Shown in pieces: positions 7,099-35,386 of a stretch of DNA of 35,386 nt. Location of the stretch: contig JALOMS010000001.1 of the NCBI GenBank assembly GCA_025455345.1, positions 1 through 35,386 of the forward strand, given 5' to 3'. Position 1 is the stretch's first letter, and the number at the start of each line of letters is the position of its first letter. Source of the stretch: Thermoflexibacter sp. Its GTDB lineage: Bacteria > Bacteroidota > Bacteroidia > Cytophagales > Thermoflexibacteraceae. The notes under the pieces were generated by a model. It had not been told where the DNA came from. It did not search any database and saw nothing but the letters and a program-made list of their open reading frames with translations. Made by a program: the position numbers and the translations under genes.

Positions 7099-7185
7099 AA
7101 GTCAGCCCAATTATCAAAATACATCAATTATTACTTACTCTGTCAAATATTTTGAAGCAAATTTATAGGTAATACCTAAGTTTAT

Positions 7186-9089: not shown

Positions 9090-9127
9090 TTAACTTTCAG
9101 TCCAAGATGTCTTGTTTAAATAATTGA

Positions 9128-9243
9128 TAAGTAATTGTGCATTTTTAATGTAAAATATGCTTTGGCGTGTTTAGTTTATCATCAAATACTGGCACACCCT
9201 AAAGGGCATGCTACAGTGTCGATTTAATTTGCACACTTACTTA
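9128..9243. repeat. MITE-like element, copy 2 (116 bp)
   Basis: 9128-9141 taagtaattgtgca versus 9230-9243 tgcacacttactta (13/14 inverted); right 33 bp is 31/33 identical to 5099-5131. Confidence 0.65.
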
Positions 9244-9407
9244 AATGCTATCTAAGCCAATAGAAAAATATACAAACAATTACACTTAGATACACTTTTT
9301 TATCATTAGCAAAGATACAAAATCCTTTGCTCAAAGTAGTTTACAAATTTATTTTATACTTTATGAATATATTTTATTCTTAAGGAAATCAATATATTAA
9401 CACTTCT

Positions 9408-10046: not shown

Positions 10047-10079
10047 AAAACTCTTGCTTTATAGTGAAACAAGAGTTTT
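10047..10079. terminator. Bidirectional hairpin terminator between rsmG and rpsT
   Basis: AAAACTCTTG...CAAGAGTTTT, 10-bp arms flanked by A/T tracts in a convergent gap. Confidence 0.85.
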
Positions 10080-10115
10080 AAGGTATATTTTGGGATTAGC
10101 TAAAAAGTAAAATGA

Positions 10116-10376
10116 TTAAGCCGCTCCTAATCTATTGACAAATTTTGCTAATCTTGATTTCTTGTGTGCTGCATTATTTTTATGAATGATATTTTTCTTT
10201 ACTAACTTATCAATCATAGAATGAACTGTTTTCAACAGAACTTGAGCTTCAGCTTTGTCTTCTGTTTCTGTAAGTCTTCTGATAAAAGTACGCGCAGTTT
10301 TATGTTGGTATCTATTTCTCAAACGCTTGCGCTCGTCAGACCTAATTTTTTTAATTGCAGATTTATGATTCGCCAT
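10116..10376 (-). CDS. rpsT: 30S ribosomal protein S20
   Basis: 'MANHKSAIKKIRSDERKRLRNRYQHKTARTFIRRL' and 'HKNNAAHKKSRLAKFVNRL'. Confidence 0.98.
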   Translation of the reverse strand: MANHKSAIKKIRSDERKRLRNRYQHKTARTFIRRLTETEDKAEAQVLLKTVHSMIDKLVKKNIIHKNNAAHKKSRLAKFVNRLGAA

Positions 10377-10432
10377 TACCTTTTATATTTTTAAAACTAA
10401 ATAATTCTTTGTCCTTTCAAAATTTTGGACTG

Positions 10433-10464
10433 CAAAGTTAGTACAATAAATCTGTTTTTGCAAA
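10433..10464 (-). promoter_or_regulatory. Bacteroidetes-type promoter TTTG-N20-TAACTTTG for rpsT
   Basis: Plus strand CAAAGTTA (10433-10440) and CAAA (10461-10464) with a 20-nt spacer, upstream of the rpsT ATG. Confidence 0.7.
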
Positions 10465-10479
10465 AAACTTCTTATTTTT

Positions 10480-11241
10480 TTAAGGCTGTGCTTCTTTTTT
10501 ATCTTTGTCTATTCTTTTTATTTGTTTGAAAGTTCCATTTTTTTGGATTTGATACCAACTTTCTCTATAATATCTTGTATCATTTTCACCAGAAGTAGTA
10601 AGTATGAAAGGTGATTCTTGGGTGAAAGTATGAGATTGGGCAAAAGTATTATCATAATTAATATCTATAAAATGTAGGTCATTTTTTGAAACAAACCTTA
10701 CGTACCTATATTCGCTCTGCTGTATATTTTGTGTACTTTCTTCTGATTCGTAACTATTCCGATAAGAAAGCAATATGCCGTCTATATACTTGCCATCTTT
10801 ACCATAATTAAGCAAGTAATATTTCCACTTTTGCGTAGGGTCACCTTCGGCATCCACAGAAATAACAACAGAGTAAAAATCAGGGCTAAGAGGAATAGAA
10901 AAAGCAGAATGACAAGTAAGAAATTGATTATCACCTACATTTCTATTAAAACTTACCTTTTTTAAATCTTGGTCAATAAAGACATTGTTTTGTAAAAATT
11001 CTTGGAAATAGGCTACATTGATTTCTGCACCTCCCTGAAAATCAGCACCATTATTAGTATCTATACTTTCTATGATTGCTGTCTTTGGAGGAAATAGCTC
11101 TAAAAATTGCTCAAATGTGGTATTTGCTAAAACATCTTGCTCTTTCTCTATATTTTTAGCGCACGATAGCATTGCTAAAGAGATGAAAATAAAAGCCAAA
11201 AGCCTAAAATAGTGAGTTAATTTGAAACAATCTGTGTCCAT
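10480..11241 (-). CDS. Hypothetical lipoprotein
   Basis: N-terminal hydrophobic segment with lipobox-like 'LAMLSCAKN'; no family recognised. Confidence 0.7.
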   Translation of the reverse strand: MDTDCFKLTHYFRLLAFIFISLAMLSCAKNIEKEQDVLANTTFEQFLELFPPKTAIIESIDTNNGADFQGGAEINVAYFQEFLQNNVFIDQDLKKVSFNRNVGDNQFLTCHSAFSIPLSPDFYSVVISVDAEGDPTQKWKYYLLNYGKDGKYIDGILLSYRNSYESEESTQNIQQSEYRYVRFVSKNDLHFIDINYDNTFAQSHTFTQESPFILTTSGENDTRYYRESWYQIQKNGTFKQIKRIDKDKKEAQP

Positions 11242-11860
11242 AGTAATAGTTTGTTTTGATATTTTTATAACAAGAGTAATATAGATTATTTTTTTTTCTA
11301 AATTACGTATTTTTAAGCAAAAAAGTTGAAAAAATTACGTCTTTTTTTAGATAATTATTTATTAATTTATTTGATGATGATTAAAAGGAAGAAGAGGAAT
11401 AAGAATTTTTAGAATAGTAAGTGTAGGCAAAGCTATATGGAAGGGAGTAAGCAAATCAAAAGCAACTTTTATGAGTAAAGTATCTTGATAATCAATTTTT
11501 TATAAATATAATTTGTCAAAGTTTTTTGCCTAACTATCCGTCAAAAATAGCATAAGATTACCTATATGAAATAATTTTTGTGTCTATTTGCTATAAAATA
11601 ATAGGATAACTATTAAATTTGATAACATAAAAATAGAATATTTTATCATATAATTTTTTGAACAATTATCTAAATCATACAGCTTATATAATGAAAATGT
11701 ACAGATGAGGTATTTTATTGATTACATTTTAAGTAATAAAGCAACATTAGTTTGTGTTATTTAAAATATAAAAAATAAGTATCATATAGTGTTTATCAAT
11801 AATTTAATTTATAACTACTCAAGACTATTTAATTGCCTTTATCATTAAATCGAGAAGAAA

Positions 11861-14800
11861 ATGAAAAAACTACTCCCTTTGATTGCCTTACTCATGCTTT
11901 GTGCGTGTGGAGGCGAAGAAAAAACGCAAACGATTGCAAAAAATGATTACGATAAACTCTCGGACGCTGAAAAGCGACACGCAGACAACGCCTTGGCTGG
12001 CTTAGAAACCAAAGAAGGTTTGGTAACTCAGCTTTTTGCCGCAGAGCCTAAACTGATGAATCCCACCAATATAGACGTGGATTCCAAAGGTAGAATTTGG
12101 GTGTGCGAGGGCTATAACTACCGTATGCACCTCAATCCCAATAATCCCGTACACAACGAAGGCGACCGTATCATCATTTTGGAAGACAAAAACGGAGATG
12201 GTGTTTCGGACGAAACCAAAGTGTTTTACCAAGGGACAGACGTAAATTCGGCACTTGGGATTTGCGTTTTGGGCAATAAAGTCATAGTTTCTTGTAGTCC
12301 CAATATTTTTGTACTGACCGATACCAATGGTGATGACAAGGCAGATACCAAAGAAATTTTGTTCAAAACACAAGGCGGTTTCCAACACGACCATGCCGTT
12401 CATGCGGTTAGTTTTGGGCATGATGGCAAGCTCTACTTCAACTTTGGCAATGACGGCAAGGCATTGTTGGACAAGGATAGCGTAGTCATCAATGACCAAT
12501 TTGGCAGACCAATTATTGCAGATACCAAACTCTACCAAGAGGGCATGGTGTTCCGTTGCGATTTGGACGGAAAAAATGTGGAGGTTTTAGGCTACAATTT
12601 TAGAAATAATTACGAAGTGGCAATGGACTCTTACGGTACACTTTGGCAGTCAGATAATGACGATGATGGTAATAAAGGCGTGAGAATCAACTATGTAATG
12701 GAATACGGTAACTTTGGTTTCAAAGACCAAATGACAGGCGCAAGCTGGCAAGCAAGGCGCACCAACTTGGAAAAAGAAATTCCCTTGCGCCACTGGCACT
12801 TGAACGACCCTGGCGTAGTCCCTAATCTCTTGCAAACAGGCGCAGGTTCGCCTACGGGTTTGCTGGTCTATGAAGGAAATTTACTTCCACAAGAGTTTCA
12901 AAATCAGGTCATTCACTGCGATGCGGGTCCTAATGTGGTGCGCGCTTACCCTGTAACTAATGATGGTGCAGGGTATAAGGCAACCATGGTAAATATTTTG
13001 CAAGGCACGAAAGACCAATGGTTTAGACCTGCGGACGTGTGTGTAGCACCTGACGGCTCGTTGATAGTGGCAGACTGGTATGACCCTGGCGTGGGTGGAC
13101 ACCAAGTAGGCGACTTGGATAGAGGAAGACTTTACAGAATTACTGTTCCCGACAAGCAAAAATATGAAGTTCCTGCTTTTGACCTTTCTACGCCCGAAAA
13201 AGCCATAGAAGCACTGAAAAGTCCTAACATGGCAACGCGCTATTTGGCTTGGACAAAGCTGAACGAAATGCAAGAACAAGCAGAAACTGCTTTGGCAACT
13301 ATTTGGAAAAATGACTCCAACCCACGCATGAAAGCGCGTGCCTTGTGGTTGCTCTCTAAAATCAAAGGCAAAGGCGAAAACTATGTGAACGAAGCATTGA
13401 AAAGCGAAAATCCTGATTTGAAAATGGCAGGAATTAGAGCAGGGAAAGAATTGAAAATGAATTTATTACCTGCTTATCAGACTTTGGCAAAAGACCCTTC
13501 GCCACAAGTAAGACGCGAAGTTGCGCTTGCGCTTAGAAACAACAAAGCACCCGAAGCCGCAGAAATTTGGGCAGAATTGGCGACACAGCACAATGGCGAC
13601 CGTTGGTATTTGGAGGCTTTGGGGATAGGTGCAGATGAGCAGTGGGATAGCTTTTTAGAGGCGTATTTGAAGCGTGTAGGTGAGGACTGGAACAAAGACA
13701 TTATTTGGAGAAGTAGGGCGAAGAAAACGCCTACCATGCTTGCCAAGATGATTCAAGGAAGCAAAGGAGAGGAAAAATTGCGCTATTTCAGAGCATTCGA
13801 TTTCCAAAAAGACAATACCAAGCAAAATGTATTACTCACGCTTTTTGACGCAAACCATGCAGAGCAAGGCGAAATTGACAACTTGGTTTTGAGGCACTTA
13901 GACAAAAATGTACCTAAAACACCTAAGTTGAAAAAGGCATTGGAAGCGGCATTGCTTTCTACCAAAGGTACGTTAGATTTTGTAGATTTGGTAAACCAAT
14001 TTGAACTAAAAGACCAATATCCTGCCCTCATGGAACTGATTTTCACCAAATCGGATAGCATAGAAGCAAGCGAAGGCGCGAAAATATTGATGAAAAAAGG
14101 AGGGAAGGATTTACTTGCCAAAGCACTGAAAGACAAGGACAACCAAAAAGTGAGAAGTACGTTAAACGTGTTGGGCAAATTGGACAGTGAAGAATCCAGA
14201 GAACTGATTTCCAGTGTGATGAACAACGAAGAATACGAAATGGCTACGCGCGCCTTGGCTTTGGAAAAGTACGGCGCAGGTTGGGGCGGGCAAGAGCAAC
14301 TTTGGAAGTTAGTCAAAGAAAGTAAGCTCAAAAAAGACTTAGAACCTACTGCTAAACAGGTACTTACCTCCGCTTGGCGCGCAGACATCAAAAGTGAAGC
14401 AAGTAAGTTTTACGGCGGCGAAACTGCCCAAGAAACCTCACCCATTGCCAAGTTAGTGTCGCAAACAGGCGATGCAAGCAAAGGAAAAGCGGTTTACACC
14501 CAATACTGCGCCCAATGCCACCAAGTAAAGGGCGAAGGCACAGATTTTGGTCCCAAGCTATCCGAAATCGGGACAAAACTGCCCAAAGAAGGGCTTTACA
14601 AGTCCATTTTGAAACCCAACGAAGGCATTAGCTTTGGTTACGAAGGCTTTGTATTCAAACTGAAAAGTGGAACTACGCTTGTGGGCGTGATTTCCAGCAA
14701 AACGGAAACGGACATTGATGTAAAGCAAGTAGGCGGTACAGTTACTAAAATCCAAAAAGCAGATATTGCAGAGCAAAAAGAATACGATGGCTCGCTTATG

Positions 14801-17324: not shown

Positions 17325-18461
17325 ATGATTTACTTAGACAACAACGCCACTACAAAAATAGATGAAGAAGTGCTTGCCTTTGCCTTGCCTTTCCTCACTA
17401 CCAACTTTGCCAATGCGTCAAGTACGCACCGCTTTGGGCTTGTTGCCAATGAAGCAGTTAAAAACGCAAGAAAACAAGTCTGTACGCTACTCAATTGCGA
17501 ACCCAATGAAATCGTCTTTACTTCTGGCGCAACAGAAGCAATCAATTTGGTTATCAAGGGCTTGCAAAGCGTTCCTAATCGCAAACACATCATCACCGTA
17601 CAGACGGAACATACTGCTGTTTTGGACACTTGCGTCTATATGGAAAGTATTGGCTATGAGGTAACTTACCTCCCCGTACAGCGCAGTGGACTACTCGATT
17701 TGGGTTTATTGAAAGAGCATATTACAGAAAATACCTTGCTTGTTTGTGTGATGTTTGCCAACAACGAAATAGGCACGATTCAGCCTATCAAGCAGATAGC
17801 AGACTTGGCACATGAAAAAGGGGCATATTTTTTTACAGACGCAACCCAAGCAGTTGGCAAAATTCCTGTCAAAGTGAACGATTTGGGTGTGGACTTTTTA
17901 GCATTTTCGGGGCATAAGTTACACGCTCCCAAAGGCATAGGCGCGCTCTATGTGCGGGCGCAAGCAGGACGCAAGGCACACCTCACGCCTTTACAGCATG
18001 GCGGTGGGCATGAAAAAGGCTTGCGAAGCGGTACGCTCAATGTGTTCGGCATCGTAGGTTTGGGTCAGGCGTGTGAAGTAGCTCAAAAAAACATGGAAAA
18101 AAATACCACCAAAATTGCTGAAATGCGCGATTTTTTAGAAAAGGAACTTTTGAAAATAGAAAACACTTTTGTAAATGGAAATATAGAAAATCGCCTACCA
18201 AACACCACCAATATTTGCTTTGAAGGGGCAGACAGCGAGGCAATAATTTTGGGCTTGGAAGACATTGCCGTTTCCAACGGTTCGGCGTGTACATCTATGA
18301 AAATAGAACCTTCTCACGTACTCAAAGCTATCGGGCTAACGGACGAGCAGGCTTTCCAATCTATTCGCCTAAGCCTGAGCAAGCACAACACGATGGAAGA
18401 GATGAAAATAGCCGCAGAGAAAATCACTAAATTGGTAAGGGAATTGAGGGAAATGTTGTAA
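17325..18461 (+). CDS. Cysteine desulfurase (NifS/IscS/DndA-like)
   Basis: 'MIYLDNNATTKID', 'FTSGATEAINLVIKG', PLP lysine 'AFSGHKLHAPKGIGALYV', catalytic Cys 'SNGSACTS'. Confidence 0.95.
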   Translation: MIYLDNNATTKIDEEVLAFALPFLTTNFANASSTHRFGLVANEAVKNARKQVCTLLNCEPNEIVFTSGATEAINLVIKGLQSVPNRKHIITVQTEHTAVLDTCVYMESIGYEVTYLPVQRSGLLDLGLLKEHITENTLLVCVMFANNEIGTIQPIKQIADLAHEKGAYFFTDATQAVGKIPVKVNDLGVDFLAFSGHKLHAPKGIGALYVRAQAGRKAHLTPLQHGGGHEKGLRSGTLNVFGIVGLGQACEVAQKNMEKNTTKIAEMRDFLEKELLKIENTFVNGNIENRLPNTTNICFEGADSEAIILGLEDIAVSNGSACTSMKIEPSHVLKAIGLTDEQAFQSIRLSLSKHNTMEEMKIAAEKITKLVRELREML

Positions 18462-18486
18462 ATTTGTAGAAGAAGAAATAAACAAT

Positions 18487-18696
18487 ATGATAACAGAAAC
18501 AAGATTAGATAAGACAAAATTTGTCATTGTTAAGAAAGGGCAAGAAATCGATGATATATTCTACTGGTTAGAACGCTTGCCAATAGAAAGAATCATTGCT
18601 TTGGAAATGATTAGAAACGAATATAATACATGGAAATATGGTACTGAACGAGGATTTCAAAGAGTTTATCAAGTTGTTAAACGACAATGGAGTTAA
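18487..18696 (+). CDS. Small partner protein (69 aa) of the nucleotidyltransferase; possible antitoxin/toxin pair member
   Basis: 'EIDDIFYWLERLPIERIIALEMIRNEYNTWKYG...RVYQVV' resembles small proteins usually found upstream of DUF6036 nucleotidyltransferases; overlaps the next gene by 59 nt. Confidence 0.65.
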   Translation: MITETRLDKTKFVIVKKGQEIDDIFYWLERLPIERIIALEMIRNEYNTWKYGTERGFQRVYQVVKRQWS

Positions 18697-19093
18697 ATAC
18701 TTGATAGTAGGTGGTTATGCAGTAGCCTTACATGGTTATCCAAGATATACCAAAGATTTAGATTTTTGGATTTGGATAGACAGAGAAAATGCTGAAAAAA
18801 CAGTAAAATCATTGAAAGAATTTGGTTTTGCCTCTTTGGGGCTTACAGCAGAAGATTTCTTAGACCCTGAAAATATAGTGCAGTTAGGCTATCCGCCAAA
18901 TAGAATAGACCTAATTACAGACCTCACAGGGCTAACATTTGAGGATTCTTATAGAAATCGCAAAGAGGTTGATTTTGAGGGAATTAAAATTAATTTCATC
19001 TCAGTAGATGACCTCATCACTAATAAGAAGAAAGCAGGCAGGTTACAAGACCTTGCAGACGCAGAAAAATTAGAGAAGGGGAAAAAGAAATAA
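18638..19093 (+). CDS. Nucleotidyltransferase (DUF6036/AbiEii-like)
   Basis: 'KYLIVGGYAVALHGYPRYTKDLDFWI' (GG..A/ KDxD nucleotidyltransferase signature) and 'INFISVDDLITNKKKAGRLQDLADAEKL'. Confidence 0.85.
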   Translation: MVLNEDFKEFIKLLNDNGVKYLIVGGYAVALHGYPRYTKDLDFWIWIDRENAEKTVKSLKEFGFASLGLTAEDFLDPENIVQLGYPPNRIDLITDLTGLTFEDSYRNRKEVDFEGIKINFISVDDLITNKKKAGRLQDLADAEKLEKGKKK

Positions 19094-19108
19094 ATAAAAA
19101 AAATCTTT

Positions 19109-19116
19109 TACCTTTG
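19109..19116 (+). promoter_or_regulatory. Candidate -7 box (TACCTTTG) for the DUF4007 gene / defence operon
   Basis: Matches TAnnTTTG, 28 nt before the ATG at 19145; no clear -33 TTTG. Confidence 0.4.
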
Positions 19117-19144
19117 CCTTCCTTAAAAAAATGTGATTCTAAAA

Positions 19145-19993
19145 ATGCAAAATACCGCGCAACTTTCATTTTCGGGGCATGAAACTTTTGTTTGTAAGCA
19201 GTTTTGGCTCAAAAAAGGCTACGACTTCGTAAGCAAGGGCAAGAAATTTTCGGATAGCAGGGCAGTTGTGGATTTGGGTGTAGGGAAAAACATGGTCGGA
19301 GCTATCAACTTTTGGCTCAAAGCTTTTGGCATGACAGAGCAAAACGAACTCACATACATAGCGCATTATCTTTTTGGTAAAGAAGGCAAAGATATTTATT
19401 TGGAAGATATAGGAACAATTTGGCTACTGCACTATCTCCTCATCAAAACAGAACGCGCTTCTATTTATAGCCTCTTTTTCAATGAGTTCCTGAAAGAAAA
19501 GCCCGATTTTAACAAGGAAAGACTCAGAACTTGGCTTGTAAACCGCACTGAAAGTAAGTTTTCTGAAAATACGATAGACAGAGATATAGACGTACTGCTG
19601 CGAACCTATCTCAAACCTAAGAATAGCAAGAGCATAGAAAAGGATTTTATCAATATCTTTGTAGGCTTAGGCTTGCTCGTAGAGAAAGATAAGAAAATGA
19701 GTGTAGTGATAGACGAAAAACCTCACGTGCCTGCGCCTATCTTCCTCTACGCTATCTTGGATAATCCCGACTTTGCCAATACAAACAGCATTAGCCTCAA
19801 AGATTTGCGCTTTGCCAAAAACTCTGTAGGGCTTGTGTTTGGCATGACCAATGACGGCATTTATCAGAAAATCAAGGAATTAGAACAGCAATATCCCGAA
19901 GCAATTATTTTTACAGAAACAGCAGGAAATCCTGTACTCCAATTCAAAGAAAAGTTAGATAAAACAAAGATTCTCAATGAATATTACCAATAA
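19145..19993 (+). CDS. DUF4007 family protein (SspB-like)
   Basis: 'LSFSGHETFVCKQFWLKKGYDFV', 'AVVDLGVGKNMVGAINFWLKAFGMT' are hallmark DUF4007 motifs; the ORF track starts at an upstream GTG (19133). Confidence 0.85.
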   Translation: MQNTAQLSFSGHETFVCKQFWLKKGYDFVSKGKKFSDSRAVVDLGVGKNMVGAINFWLKAFGMTEQNELTYIAHYLFGKEGKDIYLEDIGTIWLLHYLLIKTERASIYSLFFNEFLKEKPDFNKERLRTWLVNRTESKFSENTIDRDIDVLLRTYLKPKNSKSIEKDFINIFVGLGLLVEKDKKMSVVIDEKPHVPAPIFLYAILDNPDFANTNSISLKDLRFAKNSVGLVFGMTNDGIYQKIKELEQQYPEAIIFTETAGNPVLQFKEKLDKTKILNEYYQ

Positions 19994-20041
19994 GTTTTTC
20001 AAAGTTTTTATTAATATTGTGCAAACATATTTTTGAAAACA

Positions 20042-21160
20042 ATGACGCAACTTCCTTTCAATAATAGTTTATCCATAAGCAAACTCTCCTCTATTTTTAA
20101 TGATACGACCAACTCGTATAAATTTTTTTGGTTTTTGGCAATCTTAGAAAGTTTAAAAGAAGGAAAAAATGAAGAAATAAGTTTGGAGAGTTTAACCGCT
20201 AAAATGCTTTCATTAGTTTGGTTTCCAATTAATTACTATCGTCTTTCCTTTGGTAAACAAGACCAATTTTCAAATAAGGTAAGAGATTTAAAGTTGCAAT
20301 TTGGCTTCTCTCAAAACATGAAAAAAGAAGAGTTAGAAAAGCAAATCTTGAATTTTAGTAGCCAAAAAGAAGTTCAAGAGGTTTTCAAACTTTTAACCAA
20401 ATATGTTCCATTTAGATTTTTAAGACCATTTTTTACTGAAAATTTGCGTGGAATTATTGATAACCAAGTAAATGATTTAATCGTACAATTAGCAGAAAAA
20501 AATTTTATAAACTCTTTAAATCCAATTCTTTACAAGTTTTCAATAGACAAAAAAAGTATTATAATGAATCCTTTGTGGCTCAACTATTTAGAAACTCACT
20601 TAGGAATTTTAGAGGCTTTTTGTAAGTATCATCTTATTTTGTATTTGCAAAAAAATAACCCAAATACGCCAAATGTTGCGGACAAATTAGAGCCTGAAAC
20701 AGAAAGAGATTTGAAAAACGCAAAGATTTTTTGGAAAACTTATTTAACTGAAAATCAAAATTTTAATTGTATTTATTCTACTCAACTTGTTTCGTCGCAG
20801 AATTTAAGTATAGACCATTTTTTACCATTTTCTTTTGTTGCTCATGACCAAATTTGGAATTTATTACCTACAACTAAAAATGTAAATTCTTCAAAAAGTG
20901 ATAATATTCCCGACTTACAACTATATTTCAAATTGTTTTTAAATATTCAATATCAAGCATTTAAAGTTAATTTTGAAAAAAAACATTTAAAGATTTTAGA
21001 AGATTATAGCAATATTTTTAATTCAGATTTAGAAAATATTTATGCAATGAATTTGCATGATTTTTCAGAAAAAATGCAACAAACTATTTTACCTTTGGTA
21101 CAAATTGCGTCAAATATGGGTTTTCAAAAAAATTGGACTTTTAAAAATTTCAGACAATAG
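20042..21160 (+). CDS. HNH endonuclease domain protein
   Basis: 'FNCIYSTQLVSSQNLSIDHFLPFSFVAHDQIWNLLPTTKNVNSSKSDNIP' is an HNH core (DH..P...HD..NL...N..KS). ATG at 20042; ORF-track start is TTG. Confidence 0.8.
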   Translation: MTQLPFNNSLSISKLSSIFNDTTNSYKFFWFLAILESLKEGKNEEISLESLTAKMLSLVWFPINYYRLSFGKQDQFSNKVRDLKLQFGFSQNMKKEELEKQILNFSSQKEVQEVFKLLTKYVPFRFLRPFFTENLRGIIDNQVNDLIVQLAEKNFINSLNPILYKFSIDKKSIIMNPLWLNYLETHLGILEAFCKYHLILYLQKNNPNTPNVADKLEPETERDLKNAKIFWKTYLTENQNFNCIYSTQLVSSQNLSIDHFLPFSFVAHDQIWNLLPTTKNVNSSKSDNIPDLQLYFKLFLNIQYQAFKVNFEKKHLKILEDYSNIFNSDLENIYAMNLHDFSEKMQQTILPLVQIASNMGFQKNWTFKNFRQ

Positions 21161-22844
21161 GAATCCAAATTCGCACCTCACAGTCAAAGAAAGAATTGAA
21201 CCTTCTTTGCCAACTCGTTTCTTGCTCAAAGAGAAACGTTTAGCAGGAAAAATATTAGATTTTGGTTGCGGTTTGGGTGCAGATGTAGATTTTTTGAGAA
21301 AAAACAAGTTTGATGTTACCGCTTACGACAAACATTATTTCCCCGAATATCCACAAGAAAAATTTGATACAATCATTTGTAATTATGTTTTGAACGTGCT
21401 TTTGCCCGAAGAACAAACACAAGTTTTAATGGAAATAGCACAGCTATTAAAATCAAGTGGAAAAGCCTATTTTGCAGTTCGCAGAGATATTAAGAAAAAT
21501 GGTTTTGTCTATAATCCGAAAAGAAAAGTTACTGTTTATCAATGCAATGCTGTACTTCCTTTTCAGTCTATTTTTAAAACAGAATATTGTGAAATTTATG
21601 AATATCAGCATTATACAACACTTCACAAAGGCAATAAATTAATAAGTCCCTTTTTTGAAGAGAATGAAATTAGAGAGCTTATCATAGAAACTGCCACTGT
21701 TTTCGCTATTAAAGACAAATTTCCTGTGAATGAAGGTCATGCTCTTGTAATTCCTAAAAGATTGGTAAGCAATTATTTTGACTTAGATTTTAGAGAACAA
21801 ACAGCGATTTGGCTTGCTGTCAATAAGGTAAAATCTATTTTAACACAACAACACAATCCTTATGGTTTCAATGTCGGTTTTAATGTAAATGAAGCGGGTG
21901 GGCAAACTGTTTTTCACACACATATTCACGTTATTCCACGTTACAAAAATGATGTAGAAAATCCCAAAGGTGGAATCAGGAATGTAATCCCTCAAAAAGC
22001 AGATTACACTAAGCAAGAGCAAAAGAAAACTACTAATTTTACAAAGCCTCAAAATACTGTCTTAGTGGCTATTATGAACGATAAAAAAGATTTTTTGATA
22101 GCAAAAGAACAACTTTGGTATCGTATTCCTGTGAAGTCTGCACCTAAAAATTTGAGAGAGAACAACGTTAAATTTTTGGCTTTTTATCAAACCAAAATAT
22201 TTGAAAATGAGCAATATTCTATTCGTTGGTATGCTGAAATTACAAAAATAAACATTGTAAAACGTAGCTATTTATTTCCTGATGAACCTAAAAATCCAAA
22301 AACAGAGCAAGAATATTACAAATTGGAATTTGCTCAATTATTGGCTTTGCCTGAACCAATCATTAGTAAAAAAAATAGAAGAATTACCTTTATTCCTACT
22401 ACTGAATATAAATTTTTCAATGCAAAGGAAATCAACTACTTATTTAATGATAGTGTTATAGAAGATAAATTTTGGGAGGCTCTTGTGCAGAATAATATTT
22501 CGTCAGAAAGGCAATATCATGTTTCTAAAAATAATTCAAATTGGTTTTTGGACTTTGCTATATTTTGTAAAGATGGAAATATCAATATCGAGTGTGATGG
22601 TGATACTTTCCACACAGAAAAAAAAGACGTAAAAAGCGACAAAATAAGAAGCAATGAGTTAGAGAGTTTGGGTTGGTCTGTATTGCGTTTTCACACAGAC
22701 CAAATAGAGCATAATTTAGAAAATTCTATCAATGTAGTCAAAGAAACTATCAATAAATATGGTGGAGTAAAGGATACTGAAAGGAAAGATAAATACATTC
22801 TTTATCCCAAAGATGATGATAAAACACAAATAAAACTCTTTTAA
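21057..22844 (+). CDS. Multidomain protein: class I SAM methyltransferase + HIT hydrolase + uncharacterised middle domain + DUF559/Vsr-like endonuclease
   Basis: 'ILDFGCGLGADVDFLRKNKFDVTAYDKHYFPEYPQEKFDTIICNYVLNVL' (MTase); 'NEGHALVIPKRLV...GGQTVFHTHIHVIPRY' (HIT HxHxHxx); 'WFLDFAIFCKDGNINIECDGDTFHTEKKDVKSDKIRSNELESLGWSVLRFHTDQI' (DUF559/Vsr-like). Exact start uncertain; overlaps the HNH ORF by 104 nt. Confidence 0.85.
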   Translation: MIFQKKCNKLFYLWYKLRQIWVFKKIGLLKISDNRNPNSHLTVKERIEPSLPTRFLLKEKRLAGKILDFGCGLGADVDFLRKNKFDVTAYDKHYFPEYPQEKFDTIICNYVLNVLLPEEQTQVLMEIAQLLKSSGKAYFAVRRDIKKNGFVYNPKRKVTVYQCNAVLPFQSIFKTEYCEIYEYQHYTTLHKGNKLISPFFEENEIRELIIETATVFAIKDKFPVNEGHALVIPKRLVSNYFDLDFREQTAIWLAVNKVKSILTQQHNPYGFNVGFNVNEAGGQTVFHTHIHVIPRYKNDVENPKGGIRNVIPQKADYTKQEQKKTTNFTKPQNTVLVAIMNDKKDFLIAKEQLWYRIPVKSAPKNLRENNVKFLAFYQTKIFENEQYSIRWYAEITKINIVKRSYLFPDEPKNPKTEQEYYKLEFAQLLALPEPIISKKNRRITFIPTTEYKFFNAKEINYLFNDSVIEDKFWEALVQNNISSERQYHVSKNNSNWFLDFAIFCKDGNINIECDGDTFHTEKKDVKSDKIRSNELESLGWSVLRFHTDQIEHNLENSINVVKETINKYGGVKDTERKDKYILYPKDDDKTQIKLF

Positions 22845-22879
22845 AAAAGACATTCCTAAAATTTGTTTTATACCAGCCT

Positions 22880-22900
22880 AAGCCGTAACCATTGCGGCTT
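22880..22900 (+). terminator. Hairpin plus T-tract between the fusion gene and the dndC-like gene (terminator or attenuator)
   Basis: AAGCCG-taaccattg-CGGCTT followed by a run of T. Confidence 0.7.
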
Positions 22901-22937
22901 TTTTTATTATATTTTCTCACATAAACAAATTGAAATC

Positions 22938-24047
22938 ATGAAGACTAAAAAAATTCGACACGTACTTGGCATATCCGGGGGCAAGGACAGCACTGCCTTA
23001 GCTATCTATCTTCGGGAGCGATACCCTTCCTTAGAGATAGAATACTATTTCTGCGATACGGGCAAGGAACTTGACGAAACCTACGACCTGCTCAAAAACT
23101 TAGAGGTTTTTTTAGGTAAGAAAATTACCTACTTGCAAGGTGTCAATGTAGAAGGCGTTGCGCCCTTCGACCATTTTTTGAAGCTAAACGGCGGCTACTT
23201 GCCTTCGTCCTCTGTGCGTTGGTGTACACGCAAACTCAAACTCGCACCTTTTGAGAAGTTTATCGGAGATGACCTTTGCGTATCTTACGTAGGGATTCGC
23301 GGAGATGAGGACAGAGAGGGCTATGTATCTACAAAACCCAATATCCAAACGATTTTCCCTTTCCGCAAAAATATGTGGAGTAAGGAAATGATAAATAAGC
23401 TATTGAAAAACAGCAATATAGAAAACCTTGTAGGGCTTTATGATACCCTTGCAAGCGGGAGTGTGCGGGCGCGTGCCTTAGCGGTAGCGCAAGAGCCTAT
23501 CAGTGCGAAGTTTCCGCAAGCAAGCAAACTCAATTCCCTGCTCGATATCAGCATTGAGTCATTCAATCGGGTCATGTTTGCCTACTTGCGTACTATCAAC
23601 TCCGTAGTAGGGCAGTTGGAGGATTTTCCCCTGCTCGACAACGAAGACATATTGGCAAAAGACGATATTTTCCGCATTTTGAGGGAAAGCGGGGTAGGTA
23701 TGCCGCAGTATTACACAGAAATCCCTTACGAGGTAGAGGGCTTGGCAGGAACGTATCACCGCAGTAGGTCGGGCTGCTTTTTCTGCTTTTATCAGCAAAA
23801 AATAGAGTGGATTTGGCTTTACGAACAGCACCCCGACAAGTTTGCGGAGTCGCTGCGCTACGAAAAAGACGGCTTCACATGGATACAAGACGAAAGCCTT
23901 GCTGACCTCGTGAAGCCTGAACGCATGGCACAAATTAAAAAGGAACACCTCTTACGCACTCAACTCAAAGCAAGCAAAAAGAAATCTCCGTATCTCTTGG
24001 ATATTCTGGAAGACGCAGAGGAAGGGTGTTTGAGTTGTTTTGTGTGA
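22938..24047 (+). CDS. PAPS reductase/ATP-pyrophosphatase family, DndC/SspD-like
   Basis: PP-loop 'GISGGKDSTALAIYL', 'FCDTGKELDETYDLL', cysteines 'RWCTRKLK' and 'SGCFFCFYQQ'. ATG at 22938 preferred over the upstream ORF-track start. Confidence 0.88.
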   Translation: MKTKKIRHVLGISGGKDSTALAIYLRERYPSLEIEYYFCDTGKELDETYDLLKNLEVFLGKKITYLQGVNVEGVAPFDHFLKLNGGYLPSSSVRWCTRKLKLAPFEKFIGDDLCVSYVGIRGDEDREGYVSTKPNIQTIFPFRKNMWSKEMINKLLKNSNIENLVGLYDTLASGSVRARALAVAQEPISAKFPQASKLNSLLDISIESFNRVMFAYLRTINSVVGQLEDFPLLDNEDILAKDDIFRILRESGVGMPQYYTEIPYEVEGLAGTYHRSRSGCFFCFYQQKIEWIWLYEQHPDKFAESLRYEKDGFTWIQDESLADLVKPERMAQIKKEHLLRTQLKASKKKSPYLLDILEDAEEGCLSCFV

Positions 24048-24057
24048 GTGAGGTTGC

Positions 24058-24203
24058 GCCCCTACGGGGCTTATGAGGTGAGGTAAATTATCTCTTTTCT
24101 ACCAATATTTCACCCCTACGGGGTTTTGCAATCAGTTCCGTTAGGAACGGCATATTTGTAGGGAAGGGTTTGATAGGTAAGGAGATAAGTCCCGTTAGGG
24201 GAC
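24058..24203. repeat. Cluster of four short hairpins GCCCC-TAC-GGGGC, ACCCC-TAC-GGGGT, GTTCC-GTTA-GGAAC, GTCCC-GTTAG-GGGAC
   Basis: Located at 24058-24070, 24112-24124, 24135-24148, 24189-24203; different stems around similar cores. Confidence 0.85.
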
Positions 24204-24295
24204 GAGAGAATAAGAAATAAGATTGGCAAGTTGCGTTATTTTATAGCAATCTTAAATGTGATTATTTTTTTTAAGTCTATTGTTATTTCTTCATT

Positions 24296-26518
24296 ATGCT
24301 TAAAGAATTGTACTATCCCAAAAGTTGTATTTATCAAACAGGCAAAGAATACGAACCTCTACATTTCTTTGTAGAAGTCTTGCCTCATGCAACTACTTTT
24401 GATTTGCTTTTAGGTTATTTCAGTTCTTCTGCAATTAGTGTTCTTTCCATTGGTTTTGCTCATTTTATTGCAAATGGTGGTAAAATGAGAATCATTATCA
24501 ATGATGTGCTTTCCGAAAAAGACAAACAAGCAATTCAAAAAGCGAAGGAAGGCGAAATAAGCATAGATTATGCTATTCAAGATGTACTAAAACTCAAAAA
24601 TCACTTAGATAGCTACGGAGAACACTTTTTTAACTGTCTTTCATACTTGATTGCCCAAAATAGAATAGAAATTATCTCTATCAGACCGAAAGGCAGTAGC
24701 GGGATAGCGCACTACAAATCAGGCGTTTTCAGTGATGGTGAAAACAAAGTTCACTTTAACGGTTCTTGCAATTTTACTGCAAAGGCATTATTGGAAAACT
24801 TAGAAAAGTTAGATATTCGCAAATCTTGGGCAGGTGAAGCAGACTTTGCTTACATAGAAGAAGCAGAAAAAGATTTTGAGCAGCTATTTAGCAAGCAAGC
24901 AGATTTTGTAGAATATTTGGCAATAGAAGACATCAAAGAAGTAATTAACAATCAGTTTGGAAGCAAGGATTTAGATGAGTTACTTTCTGATGAATTAGAA
25001 TTAGCAAGGGCAAAGAATCTTAAACTCAATGCAAGTCATACCTTAAAATCAAAAATAGAGAAGTTAGAGCAGTCTATCATCAGCAAGCAAAATGAGCCAA
25101 AATTCCCTTACAAAGAAGGCGCAAGAGCCTATCAAAAAGAAGCATACGAAAATTGGGTAAGGAATAACTACAAAGGCATTTTTGCGATGGCAACGGGAAC
25201 GGGGAAAACTATTACTTCTTTGAATTGTTTGTTGGAAATTTACAAGCAAACCCATGTTTATCAGGCTATTATTCTCGTTCCTACTAATGTTTTGATAGAG
25301 CAATGGGCAAAAGAGTGTAAAAAATTTAACTACAAAAACATTTATAAGGTATCTTCTAACTATGATTGGAAAAAAGAGTTGAGTGGTTTGAATACTGAGT
25401 TTACTTGGAACAAAAATGCAAAGCCAAATTTTATCATCATTGCAACTTATAAAACCTTTTTTGGCGAGGCGTTCCAGAAAGGAATTTATAAGAAACTGCC
25501 TGAATCTACTTTAATGATAGCAGACGAGGCGCATAACCTTGCTTCTCCTTCTCATTTGCTTTTACTCCCTACTTTTCGTTTCTCAAAACGCATAGGGCTT
25601 TCTGCTACTCCTAAAAGAATTTATGACGCACAGGGAACAGAAGAAATAGAAAAGTTCTTTGATGATAAGCCGCCTTACGTCATCAATTTTGACATGAAAA
25701 GAGCAATAGATGAGCGTTTTCTATGTAGGTACAACTATTTTCCAAAAATAGTAACGCTTACAGAAATAGAGCAAAAGCAATATGTGGAAATTACCAAGAA
25801 ACTAAGCCGATTCCCCAAAAATGGAGATTGGCTTGAAAATGAGAATGTGCAAATGATGCTTATGCAACGCAAGCGCATTTTGCACAAGGCAGAAAATAAG
25901 CTAATCGTATTTCGGGAAATATTAAAAGGATTAAAACAAGAAGATAAACTTCACTATGCCTTAGTCTATGCCCCCGAAGGCTTCAAAAATAGGAATGAGG
26001 AAGATGAAATAGCTTTTGAGGAAGAAAATGCGGAATCAGAGAAAGTAATTGATTTGTATATCAAAGCACTTAGGGAGATTTCACCAAATACCACAACTGC
26101 ACAATACACAAGCACAACAAAAGACAAAGATTTTATCTTAACACAGTTTGAAAAAGGAGGCATAGATGTCCTTTTTTCTATGAAATGCTTAGACGAAGGA
26201 GTAGATATTCCAAGAACTGAAACAGCTATCTTTTGTGCAAGTACAGGCAACCCTCGTCAGTTTATTCAGCGCAGGGGGCGTATTCTTCGCACACATGATG
26301 ACAAAGAAATTGCGACAATTTATGACTTAGTAGTAGTTCCCTACACAGAGTCTAACAGTCCTTATTTTGAGATAGAGAAGCGATTGTTTAAGAACGAATT
26401 AGCAAGGGTTGCTAATTTTGCAGATTTAGCAAATAATCATTACGAAGCACTTGCTTATTTGAATCCCCCACTGGATATTTACGGCATTAACATCTATTCA
26501 CTTGAATCTGATTTTTAA
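24296..26518 (+). CDS. DEAD/DEAH helicase with N-terminal PLD-like nuclease domain (Dnd-associated restriction-type)
   Basis: PLD-like 'HYKSGVFSDGENKVHFNGSCNFT'; Walker A 'MATGTGKTITSLN', 'IADEAHNL', 'GLSATPKR', 'RQFIQRRGRILR'. Confidence 0.9.
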   Translation: MLKELYYPKSCIYQTGKEYEPLHFFVEVLPHATTFDLLLGYFSSSAISVLSIGFAHFIANGGKMRIIINDVLSEKDKQAIQKAKEGEISIDYAIQDVLKLKNHLDSYGEHFFNCLSYLIAQNRIEIISIRPKGSSGIAHYKSGVFSDGENKVHFNGSCNFTAKALLENLEKLDIRKSWAGEADFAYIEEAEKDFEQLFSKQADFVEYLAIEDIKEVINNQFGSKDLDELLSDELELARAKNLKLNASHTLKSKIEKLEQSIISKQNEPKFPYKEGARAYQKEAYENWVRNNYKGIFAMATGTGKTITSLNCLLEIYKQTHVYQAIILVPTNVLIEQWAKECKKFNYKNIYKVSSNYDWKKELSGLNTEFTWNKNAKPNFIIIATYKTFFGEAFQKGIYKKLPESTLMIADEAHNLASPSHLLLLPTFRFSKRIGLSATPKRIYDAQGTEEIEKFFDDKPPYVINFDMKRAIDERFLCRYNYFPKIVTLTEIEQKQYVEITKKLSRFPKNGDWLENENVQMMLMQRKRILHKAENKLIVFREILKGLKQEDKLHYALVYAPEGFKNRNEEDEIAFEEENAESEKVIDLYIKALREISPNTTTAQYTSTTKDKDFILTQFEKGGIDVLFSMKCLDEGVDIPRTETAIFCASTGNPRQFIQRRGRILRTHDDKEIATIYDLVVVPYTESNSPYFEIEKRLFKNELARVANFADLANNHYEALAYLNPPLDIYGINIYSLESDF

Positions 26519-26524
26519 CGTCTT

Positions 26525-26758
26525 ATGATATACGATAAAGATAAAATATTACAAGAATTTTTGAAAGACCCGCTTTTGCGTGAAAAATATAATATTCCAG
26601 AAACACACCTGCAAAGTATTAAGACTTGCAGAGATAAATCGGAATACCCAATTATTGAGTTATTACAAGAACTCATTAAGTTAGAAGAAGATAAAACTAT
26701 AAGTGAAAGTCGTCTTTCAGGCAAATATTATGATATAGTTGGAAAAAAATTAAAATAA
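26525..26758 (+). CDS. Hypothetical protein (77 aa) in the defence operon
   Basis: ATG ORF tightly packed (6-nt gap) between helicase and DndD-like genes. Confidence 0.65.
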   Translation: MIYDKDKILQEFLKDPLLREKYNIPETHLQSIKTCRDKSEYPIIELLQELIKLEEDKTISESRLSGKYYDIVGKKLK

Positions 26759-26766
26759 ATAACATT

Positions 26767-28947
26767 ATGATTATCAAAGCAATCCGTCTGCAAAACTTCT
26801 TGTGTTACTACGGAGAGAACGAGATTACGTTTTCCGAAGGTTTAAATCTCATCTTAGGGGCTAACGGTTTTGGGAAATCCAAGCTCTATGATGCTTTACA
26901 TTGGGCTTTTGATGATTATATTTTTAATACAGAAACAGGCGAATCTGAAAACACAAGTATTGTCAAGTCAAAATTAGTTTGCGACAAGACAAAGGCAGAG
27001 TGTGCAATAGGAGAAATCATTACAACTTCTGTAGAGATAGAAGTAGAGCATACAAGCAAAGAAACCTACCGCCTAAAAAGAGTTTACACTATCAAAAAAA
27101 TAGGAGAGAGTCAATTTACAGAGCCTTTGAAAAGTGAAACAAGCCTTTTTTATAAAGATGTGCTGTATTTTAAACCTACTATTGAGGATTTTACAGAAAA
27201 AGTAGAAAAACTAATTCCTTCCTCTACTCGCCCTTACGTTTGGTTCAAAGGCGAAAGAGGAATAGAAAAATTAATCAATACCACAGATGAAAAGAGTCTA
27301 AGAGAGGTAATTGAGAGGTTATCTAACATTTCTCGTTGGGAAAGTTACAAGAAAATAACAGAAAAAGCCACAGAAACCGCCTCTGCGGATTTAACTAAGC
27401 AAAGAAATACCAATAAGAAAGAAGCTGATAAAATAGCCGATTTGGAAAGGCAAAAAAATAATTTAGAAAAAGAGATAGAGAGATTAGAAAAATATATAGA
27501 AGACGATGAAAAGAATAGGGCAATAGCAGAGGAAGAGCAGGAAAAATACTTGGCTAAAAAAGATGATGCAAATAAGATTAAAGAAATTCATACCAAGCTA
27601 TTTTCTGCAAAAAAACAATATGAAAATATAAAGAAAGAGTATGAAAAGAAAGATATGGGTTTTACAACTCAACTATTTGATAAACAATGGATTTTGTTGG
27701 GCTTAGATAAATATATTGCCGAGTTTGGGAAAAAAATCCAAAATTATGACTATGAAAAGGAAGATTTAAAAAGGAAACAAACAGGAAAAGAAAGCAAGTT
27801 TAAACTATCTGCCAACATTCCTGACCCTATCAAATTGCAAGAAATGTTGGACGAGGGAAAATGCTTTGTCTGCGATCAGCCTATTGCCGAACATTCCGAT
27901 GCCTATCATTTCATCGAAGAAAAAATGAATTATAAGGAAGAGATAACGAAAGTATTAGACACATTAAATAATCATGAGGAGTTTTTTAGCCAACTGCGTA
28001 ATAATGCACTTAGATTAGAAACTGTAATTCAAGATGTTCCCCAAGACATTACAGAATATATGAAAGAAATTGAGCATTTGAAACAACAAGCAAAAATCGC
28101 AGAAGAAGAAGTAAATAGAATAGAAAACGAACTAAGTCGCTTGGTGCAAAGTGCTAATATAGAGGAAGAACAAGCAGATAATATTATGACTAACTACCGT
28201 CATGCTAAAAAACGAGCGAACGATTTAATAAGTAATATTGCTACAAATCAAGAGCAATTAAGAATAAACAAGGCTAATCTAAAGGAAAAAGAACAGGAAT
28301 TACATAAACTCACCAAAGACGATAGTGAAGTGCTGTACCTTGAAAAGGTAAAAGAAATATTAGAAGATATAAAAACAATTGCTCATAATACAAAAGATAG
28401 GATTTACCAACAACTTATCCAACAATTAGAAGACAAGGCAAATAAGCATTTTACCAATATCAATAATATTGGTGGTGCTTTTGTAGGAAAAATCAAATTC
28501 CAACCTTGGGGAAAAGGCTTTAGACCTAAAATTATGAGTAACGGGGTTGAAGTTTTTAGCTCAAATACATCTAATATTAGTGCTATGAAGTTATCTATTA
28601 TCATGGCAATTATCTCAGCAAAAGATAGAAATGCAGAATTTTATCCTTTGATAGCAGACGCACCTGTTTCTGATTTTGATGAAGTAAAAACAATTACGCT
28701 ACTAAATGAAATAGGTAACACTTTTACACAAAGTATTATCATGTTTAAAGACCTTCTAAAAGAAAATAAAAACCCAAATAGTCAGCAAGATATTTATATA
28801 GTTGATGACGAAGCATTAAATGATTTACGCCAAAAACTTCCGAAAGATAAGCCTATTGTGGTTCATCAACTCTTTGCTTATAATAACTCAGATGTAGATA
28901 ATCGAACTGGAACTTATACTAAAATTCAAAAAGTGAAAGAGTTATGA
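26767..28947 (+). CDS. SMC/Rad50-like ATPase, DndD-like
   Basis: 'IRLQNFLCYYGENEITFSEGLNLILGANGFGKSKLYDALHWAF' Walker A, long coiled coil, zinc hook 'CFVCDQPI', Walker B-like 'PLIADAPVSDFDE'. Confidence 0.87.
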   Translation: MIIKAIRLQNFLCYYGENEITFSEGLNLILGANGFGKSKLYDALHWAFDDYIFNTETGESENTSIVKSKLVCDKTKAECAIGEIITTSVEIEVEHTSKETYRLKRVYTIKKIGESQFTEPLKSETSLFYKDVLYFKPTIEDFTEKVEKLIPSSTRPYVWFKGERGIEKLINTTDEKSLREVIERLSNISRWESYKKITEKATETASADLTKQRNTNKKEADKIADLERQKNNLEKEIERLEKYIEDDEKNRAIAEEEQEKYLAKKDDANKIKEIHTKLFSAKKQYENIKKEYEKKDMGFTTQLFDKQWILLGLDKYIAEFGKKIQNYDYEKEDLKRKQTGKESKFKLSANIPDPIKLQEMLDEGKCFVCDQPIAEHSDAYHFIEEKMNYKEEITKVLDTLNNHEEFFSQLRNNALRLETVIQDVPQDITEYMKEIEHLKQQAKIAEEEVNRIENELSRLVQSANIEEEQADNIMTNYRHAKKRANDLISNIATNQEQLRINKANLKEKEQELHKLTKDDSEVLYLEKVKEILEDIKTIAHNTKDRIYQQLIQQLEDKANKHFTNINNIGGAFVGKIKFQPWGKGFRPKIMSNGVEVFSSNTSNISAMKLSIIMAIISAKDRNAEFYPLIADAPVSDFDEVKTITLLNEIGNTFTQSIIMFKDLLKENKNPNSQQDIYIVDDEALNDLRQKLPKDKPIVVHQLFAYNNSDVDNRTGTYTKIQKVKEL

Positions 28948-29483
28948 GAAAATTAATGGACATAATAGAAGGAAAAATTTTTAAAATTTCTTCTAAATAT
29001 TTCACCTCTAAACCTATTGAGAAAGGTTTATTAGTCGACTATGCTCGTAAATTAGGTGGACAAAAAGGTTCTGGAAATGAAGAAGGAAAAATAGAGCGAG
29101 GTATGGCTTTTGGGACTGTTTTTGATTTCTTATTATATGCTTTTTTATTAGGTGTAAGACTGAATAAATACGAACCAATACAAGAAAAAGAACAAACAGA
29201 AGCTCCTTTCCAAACAATTAGGGATAGTGGGCAAAAGCGGATTAAAATTATTCAATTTATAGTGATGATTCTTTTAACAAAATCACAAAAAGAACTAATA
29301 GATATAGAGCAGATGAATGAAAAAGAATTAGAAGATTTTGCAAAAGAACTTATTACTATGCTTGAAGGCTATGCAAATGGAGGCTTTGAGATAATCAGCC
29401 TTTATAGAGAGGATAATGAACAGTATTTTGAAGACACCAACAATTTCGTCAATTTCCTTACAGATAGTCAAGAGCAGTTTTAA
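28944..29483 (+). CDS. Hypothetical protein (179 aa), last gene of the defence operon
   Basis: ATG overlaps the TGA of the DndD-like gene (ATGA); no similarity to canonical DndE recognised. Confidence 0.75.
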   Translation: MRKLMDIIEGKIFKISSKYFTSKPIEKGLLVDYARKLGGQKGSGNEEGKIERGMAFGTVFDFLLYAFLLGVRLNKYEPIQEKEQTEAPFQTIRDSGQKRIKIIQFIVMILLTKSQKELIDIEQMNEKELEDFAKELITMLEGYANGGFEIISLYREDNEQYFEDTNNFVNFLTDSQEQF

Positions 29484-33727: not shown

Positions 33728-35386
33728 CTAACTCCCCCCTACTCCCTGCTCCACCAATTCAATTTCCTCTGGGGTGAGGTCGTAGAGTTGGTAAACCAAT
33801 TGGTCTATTTGGGTTTCTTCTGTTTGGGTATTTTCGCCTCTTTCTTTTTTTGCCAAGATAGAATCTACTATTTTGATGATGGCTTTTTGGGTTTTGGTAT
33901 CTGCGTTGGGAATCACAAATTTTTCCACAGAGGTCTTTTTGAGTACATAAGCCCCGCCTGCGGTATATTCGCCTACACGAATGAAGTAATAATTGAATAG
34001 CTTGCTATTGAACAATGCCAATATAAATTTCAGTGGAATGGTTTTAGATACCAAAAAATAAGAAGCACTGGTAAGAAAATGTTTCTGATTGTCATAAGCA
34101 AAATTCCAATGTCCTGATATTAAGCCCCATACAATTTTATTTTTGTCGAAATCAGCATAGTAAGTATTGGCATATCTCTGCAAGGCATACCATTCATACC
34201 TTATCCCCGTTTCTTCTTTATTTCTATTAGATAACTTCTTTTTAAATCTGGAAAGGTGTGCCAAAAGTACAGGGTAGTTTTTCTGAAATTCTATTTCTGC
34301 CTTCTCCGTAACCAATTCATTCCTTTTGGTATTTTTCAAAGGAAAATGCCATGGGATAAAAAGTAGATGAAGATGATTAAACTGCAAAGCGTACTTATAA
34401 ATGTCTTTACCTCTTAATAAAGGTTTAATAATATTGGCAATCTTTGGCTCCTGTGCTAATAATTCTTTTTTATCGTCCTCAGAAATTACAAAAGCCTCAT
34501 CAAAACCTGTGGTAATCCCTCTGTAAATGCTTATATCAGTTATTTCACTAATCGCTTTTCCCTTTGATTTTATTTTATTGATGAGTTGGCTCGTATCTAA
34601 GCTGTGGAACAACCAAGCACTTGCTTTGAGTGCGTCTTGGGGAAGGTAGGTCGCCAGATTTTCAATCAAAAGTCCTAAGTTTTGGAGGTCATCTACTTTG
34701 TCCTTAAAAAATCGGTGATACCTAAATTTTTCTTGTGCTACTCCTTTGCGAATAATGAGGATAGCACTTGACACCAATGCCGCTTTGAAAGTTCTAACTT
34801 GTTCTAAATCAATAATATCATGGAAAGTATAACCTGCTAAAAACTCTCGTAATTTTTTCCCGTATTCCGCATTGAAAAACTTATTGGAATTAATAACGCT
34901 CACTATGCCTTGCGCCTGTGCGAGTGCGATAGATTTCTCAAAGAAATAGGTACTTAGGTCAGCCGTCCCTGCATAGACCTGATAGCTTTCTTTGAGATAA
35001 CTGCTCATGTAGGCAAGCTCGCGGTGCTGTATGTAAGGCGGGTTGGAAATAATTGCGTCAAATCCTTCAAAATCACCATTGTCTTTCAATACTTCGGGAA
35101 ACTCGAATCGCCACTCAAAGGCATTGCGATAGACAATGTTATTTTTCGTTTCTTCTAATTCTCTGGTCAAACGCTCTTTTTCCTCTTCCAATTGCTTGAT
35201 TTTATCCCTTTCTAATCCATTGCCCTCTCCATTGCCTTCCTTTTTGTCTATGCCCTTGTTGAACAAGTCATCACTTGCTCTCAAAACCAGTTCGGCGTTT
35301 ACCCTTTGCAAGCGAACTATGCGCGGGTCGCTGTATTTTGCGATTTCTGTTTTGAAGCTACTTTTGATTTCTGCAATGATTTTTTC
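33728..35386 (-). CDS. Eco57I/TaqI-like N6-adenine DNA methylase or Type IIG R-M protein, N-terminus truncated by the window edge
   Basis: NPPY catalytic motif 'DAIISNPPYIQHRELAYMSSYLKESY', 'GIVSVINSNKFFNAEYGKKLREFL', C-terminal target-recognition-like region; frame stays open to 35386 (EKIIAEIKSSFKTEIAKYSDPRIVR...). Confidence 0.88.
   Translation of the reverse strand, partial: EKIIAEIKSSFKTEIAKYSDPRIVRLQRVNAELVLRASDDLFNKGIDKKEGNGEGNGLERDKIKQLEEEKERLTRELEETKNNIVYRNAFEWRFEFPEVLKDNGDFEGFDAIISNPPYIQHRELAYMSSYLKESYQVYAGTADLSTYFFEKSIALAQAQGIVSVINSNKFFNAEYGKKLREFLAGYTFHDIIDLEQVRTFKAALVSSAILIIRKGVAQEKFRYHRFFKDKVDDLQNLGLLIENLATYLPQDALKASAWLFHSLDTSQLINKIKSKGKAISEITDISIYRGITTGFDEAFVISEDDKKELLAQEPKIANIIKPLLRGKDIYKYALQFNHLHLLFIPWHFPLKNTKRNELVTEKAEIEFQKNYPVLLAHLSRFKKKLSNRNKEETGIRYEWYALQRYANTYYADFDKNKIVWGLISGHWNFAYDNQKHFLTSASYFLVSKTIPLKFILALFNSKLFNYYFIRVGEYTAGGAYVLKKTSVEKFVIPNADTKTQKAIIKIVDSILAKKERGENTQTEETQIDQLVYQLYDLTPEEIELVEQGVGGS

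Follow-up and report, generated by a model that had tools for sequence, protein, structure and literature searches.

Examination of a 35,386-nucleotide stretch of the Thermoflexibacter sp. genome (contig JALOMS010000001.1; hereafter the window) reveals at positions 17325-29483 a predicted defence locus that joins three components of the Ssp phosphorothioate (PT) writer, SspA, SspB and SspD, to a following PbeABCD cassette. The gene for the AAA+ ATPase SspC is absent, and its slot is filled by a HNH nuclease gene and a gene for a fusion of methyltransferase (MTase), HIT and DUF559 domains, an oddity that an earlier note on this DNA had missed. The sequence makes it very probable that this is an Ssp-Pbe architecture in which sspC has been swapped out for the cassette. 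In our view the best explanation, with a probability of roughly 0.58, is that sspC of an Ssp-Pbe defence locus was replaced by a mobile HNH/MTase-HIT-DUF559 cassette, leaving PT writing off or weakened.

Gene content of the locus

Each protein of the locus was searched against the Pfam, PADLOC and NCBIfam profiles. All open reading frames (ORFs) are uninterrupted and lie on the + strand in the 5' to 3' order SspA, a 69-residue ORF, a nucleotidyltransferase (NTase), SspB, HNH, MTase-HIT-DUF559, SspD, PbeA, a 77-residue ORF, PbeC and PbeD, so that the ORFs and family searches confirm the run of genes named in the earlier note. The cysteine desulfurase SspA (17325-18461) is recovered by the PADLOC SspA profile with 523 bits, nearly equalled by the DndA profile (520 bits), and contains the catalytic-cysteine loop SNGSACTS. 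The SspB-type component (19133-19993) proposed earlier is indeed present, being a member of the DUF4007 family of DNA-binding nickases (Pfam PF13182, 253 bits; PADLOC SspB, 299 bits) that matches the solved SspB structures (PDB 6JUF/6LB9, E 8e-19). The protein previously described as DndC-like is instead SspD (22938-24047), a PAPS-reductase-like sulfur carrier with a SGGKDS motif, which scores 315 bits against the PADLOC SspD profile vs 27 bits against DndC.

Downstream of SspD, PbeA (24296-26518) is a HKD nuclease fused to a SF2 helicase (PADLOC PbeA, 984 bits; TIGR04095, 415 bits) with the motifs HYKSGVFSD, GTGKT and DEAH intact; the nuclease/helicase effector formerly ascribed to the locus is this known protein. 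The zinc-hook (CxxC) ABC ATPase (26767-28947), formerly taken to be DndD-like, is PbeC (PADLOC PbeC, 103 bits vs 28 bits for DndD) and displays a GANGFGKS Walker A motif and a CFVC hook. The 179-residue ORF behind it (28944-29483) is PbeD: its match to TIGR04062, the NCBIfam 'DNA phosphorothioation-associated protein 4', falls below the cut-off (25.5 bits; cut-off 74), and it shows homology (up to 76 bits) to the proteins encoded just after PbeC in related loci, with a structure model of moderate quality (pLDDT 77). The 77-residue ORF between PbeA and PbeC (26525-26758) has no family match and is a PbeB candidate by position alone, relatives carrying ORFs of 76-80 residues there. Judged from these sequences, PbeABCD appears intact.

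Among columns at least 97% conserved in relatives, the locus retains 69/70 in SspA, 33/33 in SspB, 112/116 in SspD, 165/166 in PbeA and 28/30 in PbeC, and only 6/13 in the divergent PbeD. The profile scores rule out DndC and DndD as identities for any part of the locus, and PbeD matched DndE neither by profile nor by fold, so that a reading of PbeD as DndE was not reproduced. Hence the idea of a PT-type modification-restriction locus mixing two systems stands, with Ssp and Pbe, and not Dnd, as its parts. No match to SspE or SspFGH was found among the locus proteins, to which the search for these families was confined, and the scanned locus proteins likewise yielded no match to PglZ or BrxL.

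The missing SspC and the cassette in its place

A full SspC sits between full-length SspB and SspD in 69/70 loci, typically in overlapping frames, the exception being the locus designated L047. In the window SspC is missing from the locus, and a profile of 11 SspC proteins, which recovers intact SspC in control genomes, finds none in the window genome assembly (86.7% complete, 785 contigs). Since the nearest relative, a Cytophagales bin (SspB 73% and SspD 71% identical), keeps SspC directly behind SspB, the loss in the window locus is probably derived.

The SspB-SspD interval is filled by two genes. The first (20033-21160) encodes a HNH nuclease (Pfam HNH_4, 39 bits) belonging to a family conserved in 20 or more genomes. 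Its structure model is confident (pLDDT 90), and resemblance to solved folds is limited to the HNH core, with no match to its helical remainder among solved structures. A relationship to Cas9 was rejected, as the Cas9 match is confined to this core of approximately 80 residues. The second gene (21057-22844) encodes the MTase-HIT-DUF559 protein (Pfam HIT 73, Methyltransf_23 43, MTES_1575 45 and DUF559 41 bits), whose true start is uncertain, homologous residues first appearing near 21160. Its MTase-HIT part is 53-56% identical to MTase-HIT proteins of about 290 residues elsewhere, and in one locus (L108) DUF559 is encoded on its own immediately after MTase-HIT; by these comparisons the window protein fuses parts of a module that are found apart in other genomes. 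The MTase part additionally shows a weak match (38 bits) to TIGR04096. One idea is that the HIT domain acts on 5'-adenylated DNA, as in aprataxin. The cassette has a GC content of 26-31%, against 39% for SspB and 46% for SspD; this contrast is a weak mark of the cassette, because PbeB, PbeC and PbeD are equally GC-poor.

Tight two-gene pairs of HIT and HNH were also observed beside insertion sequence elements on Hymenobacter and Aromatoleum plasmids (L178:2032-3417 and L180:3007-4379), and HIT plus HNH may be the core of the module. Members of the same HNH family further occur on cyanobacterial plasmids near DUF4007 and SspC-like pieces (L120, Synechocystis pSYSM, 4732-12807; L121, Geminocystis, 793-10352); the SspC-like protein has just 563 residues in pSYSM and is split into two ORFs in the Geminocystis plasmid pGM3709_04.

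Recurrent displacement of ssp genes

The displacement event is seen most clearly on comparing L047 with L041, which are 97-98% identical in both sspB and sspD. In L047, HNH and MTase-HIT take the place of bases 6996-9993 of L041, a segment that runs from sspC codon 72 to a point 16 bp short of sspD, and thus stand almost exactly where sspC was. Besides this pair, sspB or sspC is cut short at cassettes in at least six further genomes (L081, L168, G023, L032, G267 and L019). Beside HNH or MTase-HIT, SspB ends at profile position 58 in L081, 68 in L168, 107 in G023 and 140 in L032, while SspC ends at 72 in L047 and at 676 in G267, and its C-terminal part is left in L019. The right-hand junction before sspD is common to L047, L032 and L040; the left breakpoints differ, which excludes a single fixed insertion site. 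Moreover, the HNH genes at such loci are not monophyletic, and well-supported branches force a minimum of five changes. Where HNH lies outside the sspB-sspD interval (L053, L106, L119 and L170), SspC is kept, but in L170 it is split into two frames. Strong matches to the HNH protein were found in 21 genomes from two samples of 396 and 294 genomes, counted with L047's own genome excluded, and in 11/21 a gene or stub of Ssp, Pbe or Dnd lies no more than ~10 kb away; for scale, PbeA occurs in only 10/396 genomes. From these sequence comparisons the Ssp-Pbe locus looks like an exchange site for defence modules, with stubs of sspB, sspC, pbeC or pbeD left behind.

Other defence genes are neighbours of HNH-MTase-HIT in complete or remnant Ssp-Pbe loci, namely those for Argonaute (L032:4884-8036), Hachiman HamAB (L166:10040-13510), a DdmD-like protein (L165:10287-14069) and RloB (L040:3980-4522). 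The long ORFs downstream in L047, L032 and L019 were considered as carriers of SspC and encode unrelated proteins. In L032 a 1050-residue ORF was also considered as SspC and is the prokaryotic Argonaute. The SspB stubs are unlikely to be working partners of the HNH protein, as the HNH and HIT genes are reversed in L081.

Association of Ssp with Pbe and comparison with known systems

A scan for SspD, with one genome per species, recovered 80 loci, nearly all from Bacteroidota by title. With profiles built from these loci, PbeA was found within ~10 kb in 54/80, a lower bound as several loci end at contig ends; in 49 of the 54 it shares the strand of SspD, and in 22 it follows SspD directly. The mix of genes, previously viewed as a possible 'intermediate' type, is thus a common partnership, and the lack of co-occurrence elsewhere that by the earlier note would have refuted its reading was not seen. 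In the Bacteroidota sample of 396 genomes, the 10 PbeA genes have as neighbours Ssp in six cases (window included), Dnd in two and neither within ~10 kb in two, making Ssp the commonest PbeA neighbour in this sample. Beyond this sample, on the Rhizobium plasmid pRinCIP108029a an AAA ATPase, PbeD and PbeA adjoin, by annotation, a divergent desulfurase-DUF4007-ATPase-PAPS-reductase set, and on a Pontibrevibacter plasmid Pbe is paired with Dnd. Plasmids of Lactiplantibacillus, Leuconostoc, Halorhabdus and Pseudanabaena carry PbeA together with its ATPase but have no writer genes annotated in the vicinity, in line with the report that CxC ABC ATPase systems are also found alone (PMC10853773). Two Ssp-Pbe loci of Bacteroidales type were observed on contigs titled Bacilli and Erysipelotrichaceae bins (L056, L077), for which mis-binning seems more likely than transfer.

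Published pairings link PbeABCD with Dnd (PMC6459918) and SspABCD with SspE or SspFGH (PMC8092258). No description of SspBCD with Pbe was found in the searched literature, which omitted the 2020 ABC-ATPase survey defining CxC, so an earlier mention is possible. The window locus resembles the SspABCD systems in its SspA, SspB and SspD by profile, and its relatives have the whole SspABCD set; it differs from them in having HNH/MTase-HIT-DUF559 in place of SspC and PbeABCD as its restriction partner. With the DndCDEA-PbeABCD system of Natrinema/Haloterrigena (PMC6459918) and the CxC ABC ATPase systems (PMC10853773) it shares the gene order PbeA, small ORF, PbeC, PbeD, whereas the writer of DndCDEA-PbeABCD is of Dnd type and that of the window of Ssp type. 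Type 4 BREX (PMC12839542) likewise has DUF4007, PAPS-reductase and desulfurase components, but the window locus is devoid of PglZ, BrxL and the SspC/BrxC ATPase. The cassette recalls both the adjoining HIT and HNH genes on plasmids of other phyla and TIGR04096, annotated as a 'DNA phosphorothioation-associated putative methyltransferase'; it differs in that MTase, HIT and DUF559 form a single protein and the adjacent HNH has a gene of its own. No description of the HIT-HNH pairs or of TIGR04096 as a defence system was found.

Predicted consequences for PT writing

In the ordinary form of the locus seen in relatives, SspA would take sulfur from cysteine and SspD would carry it, while SspB would nick DNA and SspC would provide ATP-driven DNA handling, together placing single-stranded PT marks on host DNA; PbeABCD would then block replication of unmarked viral DNA. 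PT writing is known to call for a desulfurase and a PAPS-reductase protein, together with an ATPase, either of the ABC/CxC or of the SspC type, and a DNA-recognition protein, either DndE or SspB (PMC12707154). Because the window copy has no SspC to act as ATPase, it is most simply read as one in which writing is off or weak, and we lean slightly towards loss of writing. The HNH cassette would in this case be an added, independent nuclease module. In the archaeal Natrinema test system, deleting writer genes while leaving pbeABCD intact caused no toxicity but abolished protection (PMC6459918), suggesting that the cell could live with a silent Pbe and depend on the HNH cassette. Most likely, then, PT writing was disabled or altered by a recurrent module swap, and what remains is the nuclease cassette together with Pbe.

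Several observations weigh against a silenced writer. The sspA, sspB and sspD genes show no decay, and a dead writer should decay in time. A genome only 86.7% complete might also hold sspC in its unassembled part. Further, SspD of the SspC-less L032 and L040 is strongly conserved, with a ratio of nonsynonymous to synonymous substitution rates (dN/dS) of 0.03; this last point is tempered by SspC-bearing relatives with nearly the same SspD, such as L041, which weaken the ratio as proof of function without SspC.

The undecayed SspB and SspD would also fit a hybrid writer, effectively a chimera of Ssp and Dnd/CxC, in which the zinc-hook ATPase PbeC, with PbeD, replaces SspC; if PbeC is counted, the full list of required parts (PMC12707154) is present. 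In L174 (1-4835), a 4.8-kb contig with no SspD, a divergent PbeC-PbeD pair comes immediately after HNH and MTase-HIT, and this arrangement could likewise accord with such a link. Most Ssp-Pbe loci, however, retain both SspC and PbeC, so that PbeC is not the usual replacement; neither profile nor fold comparison links PbeD to DndE, and L032 has lost most of SspB too. On balance we consider a hybrid writer unlikely, and its fuller version, with a PbeC/PbeD motor coupled to PbeA and to the cassette in the SspC place as effectors, a shade less likely again. The gap in the assembly bears directly on another account, that SspC is encoded elsewhere and acts in trans within an ordinary Ssp-Pbe system carrying an extra cassette. 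The position of SspC between SspB and SspD in all but one of the 70 loci and the negative profile search of the assembly both speak against this, and we regard it as doubtful. Fragmentation into 785 contigs and the GC contrast of the cassette could furthermore suggest a misjoin between sspB and sspD. Yet the order SspB-HNH-MTase-HIT-SspD recurs in the independent genome of L047 and SspB-cut SspC-HNH-MTase-HIT in G267, and PbeB, PbeC and PbeD match the cassette in GC content, rendering an artefact highly improbable. We accordingly favour replacement of sspC by the mobile cassette, with PT writing off or weakened.

Other features of the locus and window

Between SspA and SspB (18487-19093), the 69-residue ORF (18487-18696, + strand) overlaps a gene for a 151-residue NTase of the DUF2204/DUF6036-like type (18638-19093, + strand; Pfam DUF2204 30 bits, DUF6036 28 bits). 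The 'NTase pair' of the earlier note thus holds for the larger ORF and fails for the smaller, which matched no Pfam, PADLOC or NCBIfam family and has no counterpart in related loci. The NTase is probably an added gene, and the two ORFs together resemble a pair of the toxin-antitoxin type. Members of this NTase family were also observed near HNH in L105 and preceding SspD in L002.

The SspD frame is open back to 22863, and its start is probably at 22938, because a terminator-like hairpin of nine pairs with a T run (22880-22900, + strand), lying between the cassette and sspD, falls inside the longer ORF; similarity to relatives likewise begins near the ATG at 22938. Such terminator-like sites number 11 in the region vs 8.0 +/- 2.9 expected, a total not above chance.

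The locus is flanked by ordinary genes, a sulfatase upstream and a FAA hydrolase downstream. A second restriction-type gene lies 4 kb from the island on the - strand (33728-35311) and codes for an Eco57I-type adenine methyltransferase with a TaqI_C domain, possibly cut by the nearby contig end. Also on the - strand, 5171-6319 gives a strong match to indoleamine 2,3-dioxygenase (PF01231, E 1e-93), a family known mainly from eukaryotes.

Biological implications

More than 80% of sspBCD clusters are without SspE and SspFGH, and further restriction partners have been suggested as possible (Wang et al. 2021, PMC8092258). PbeABCD is a candidate for this partner in many Bacteroidota sspBCD loci and on at least one Rhizobium plasmid. 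The natural variants lacking SspC, in turn, offer a direct test of the need for SspC in PT writing, and of the need of Pbe for PT.

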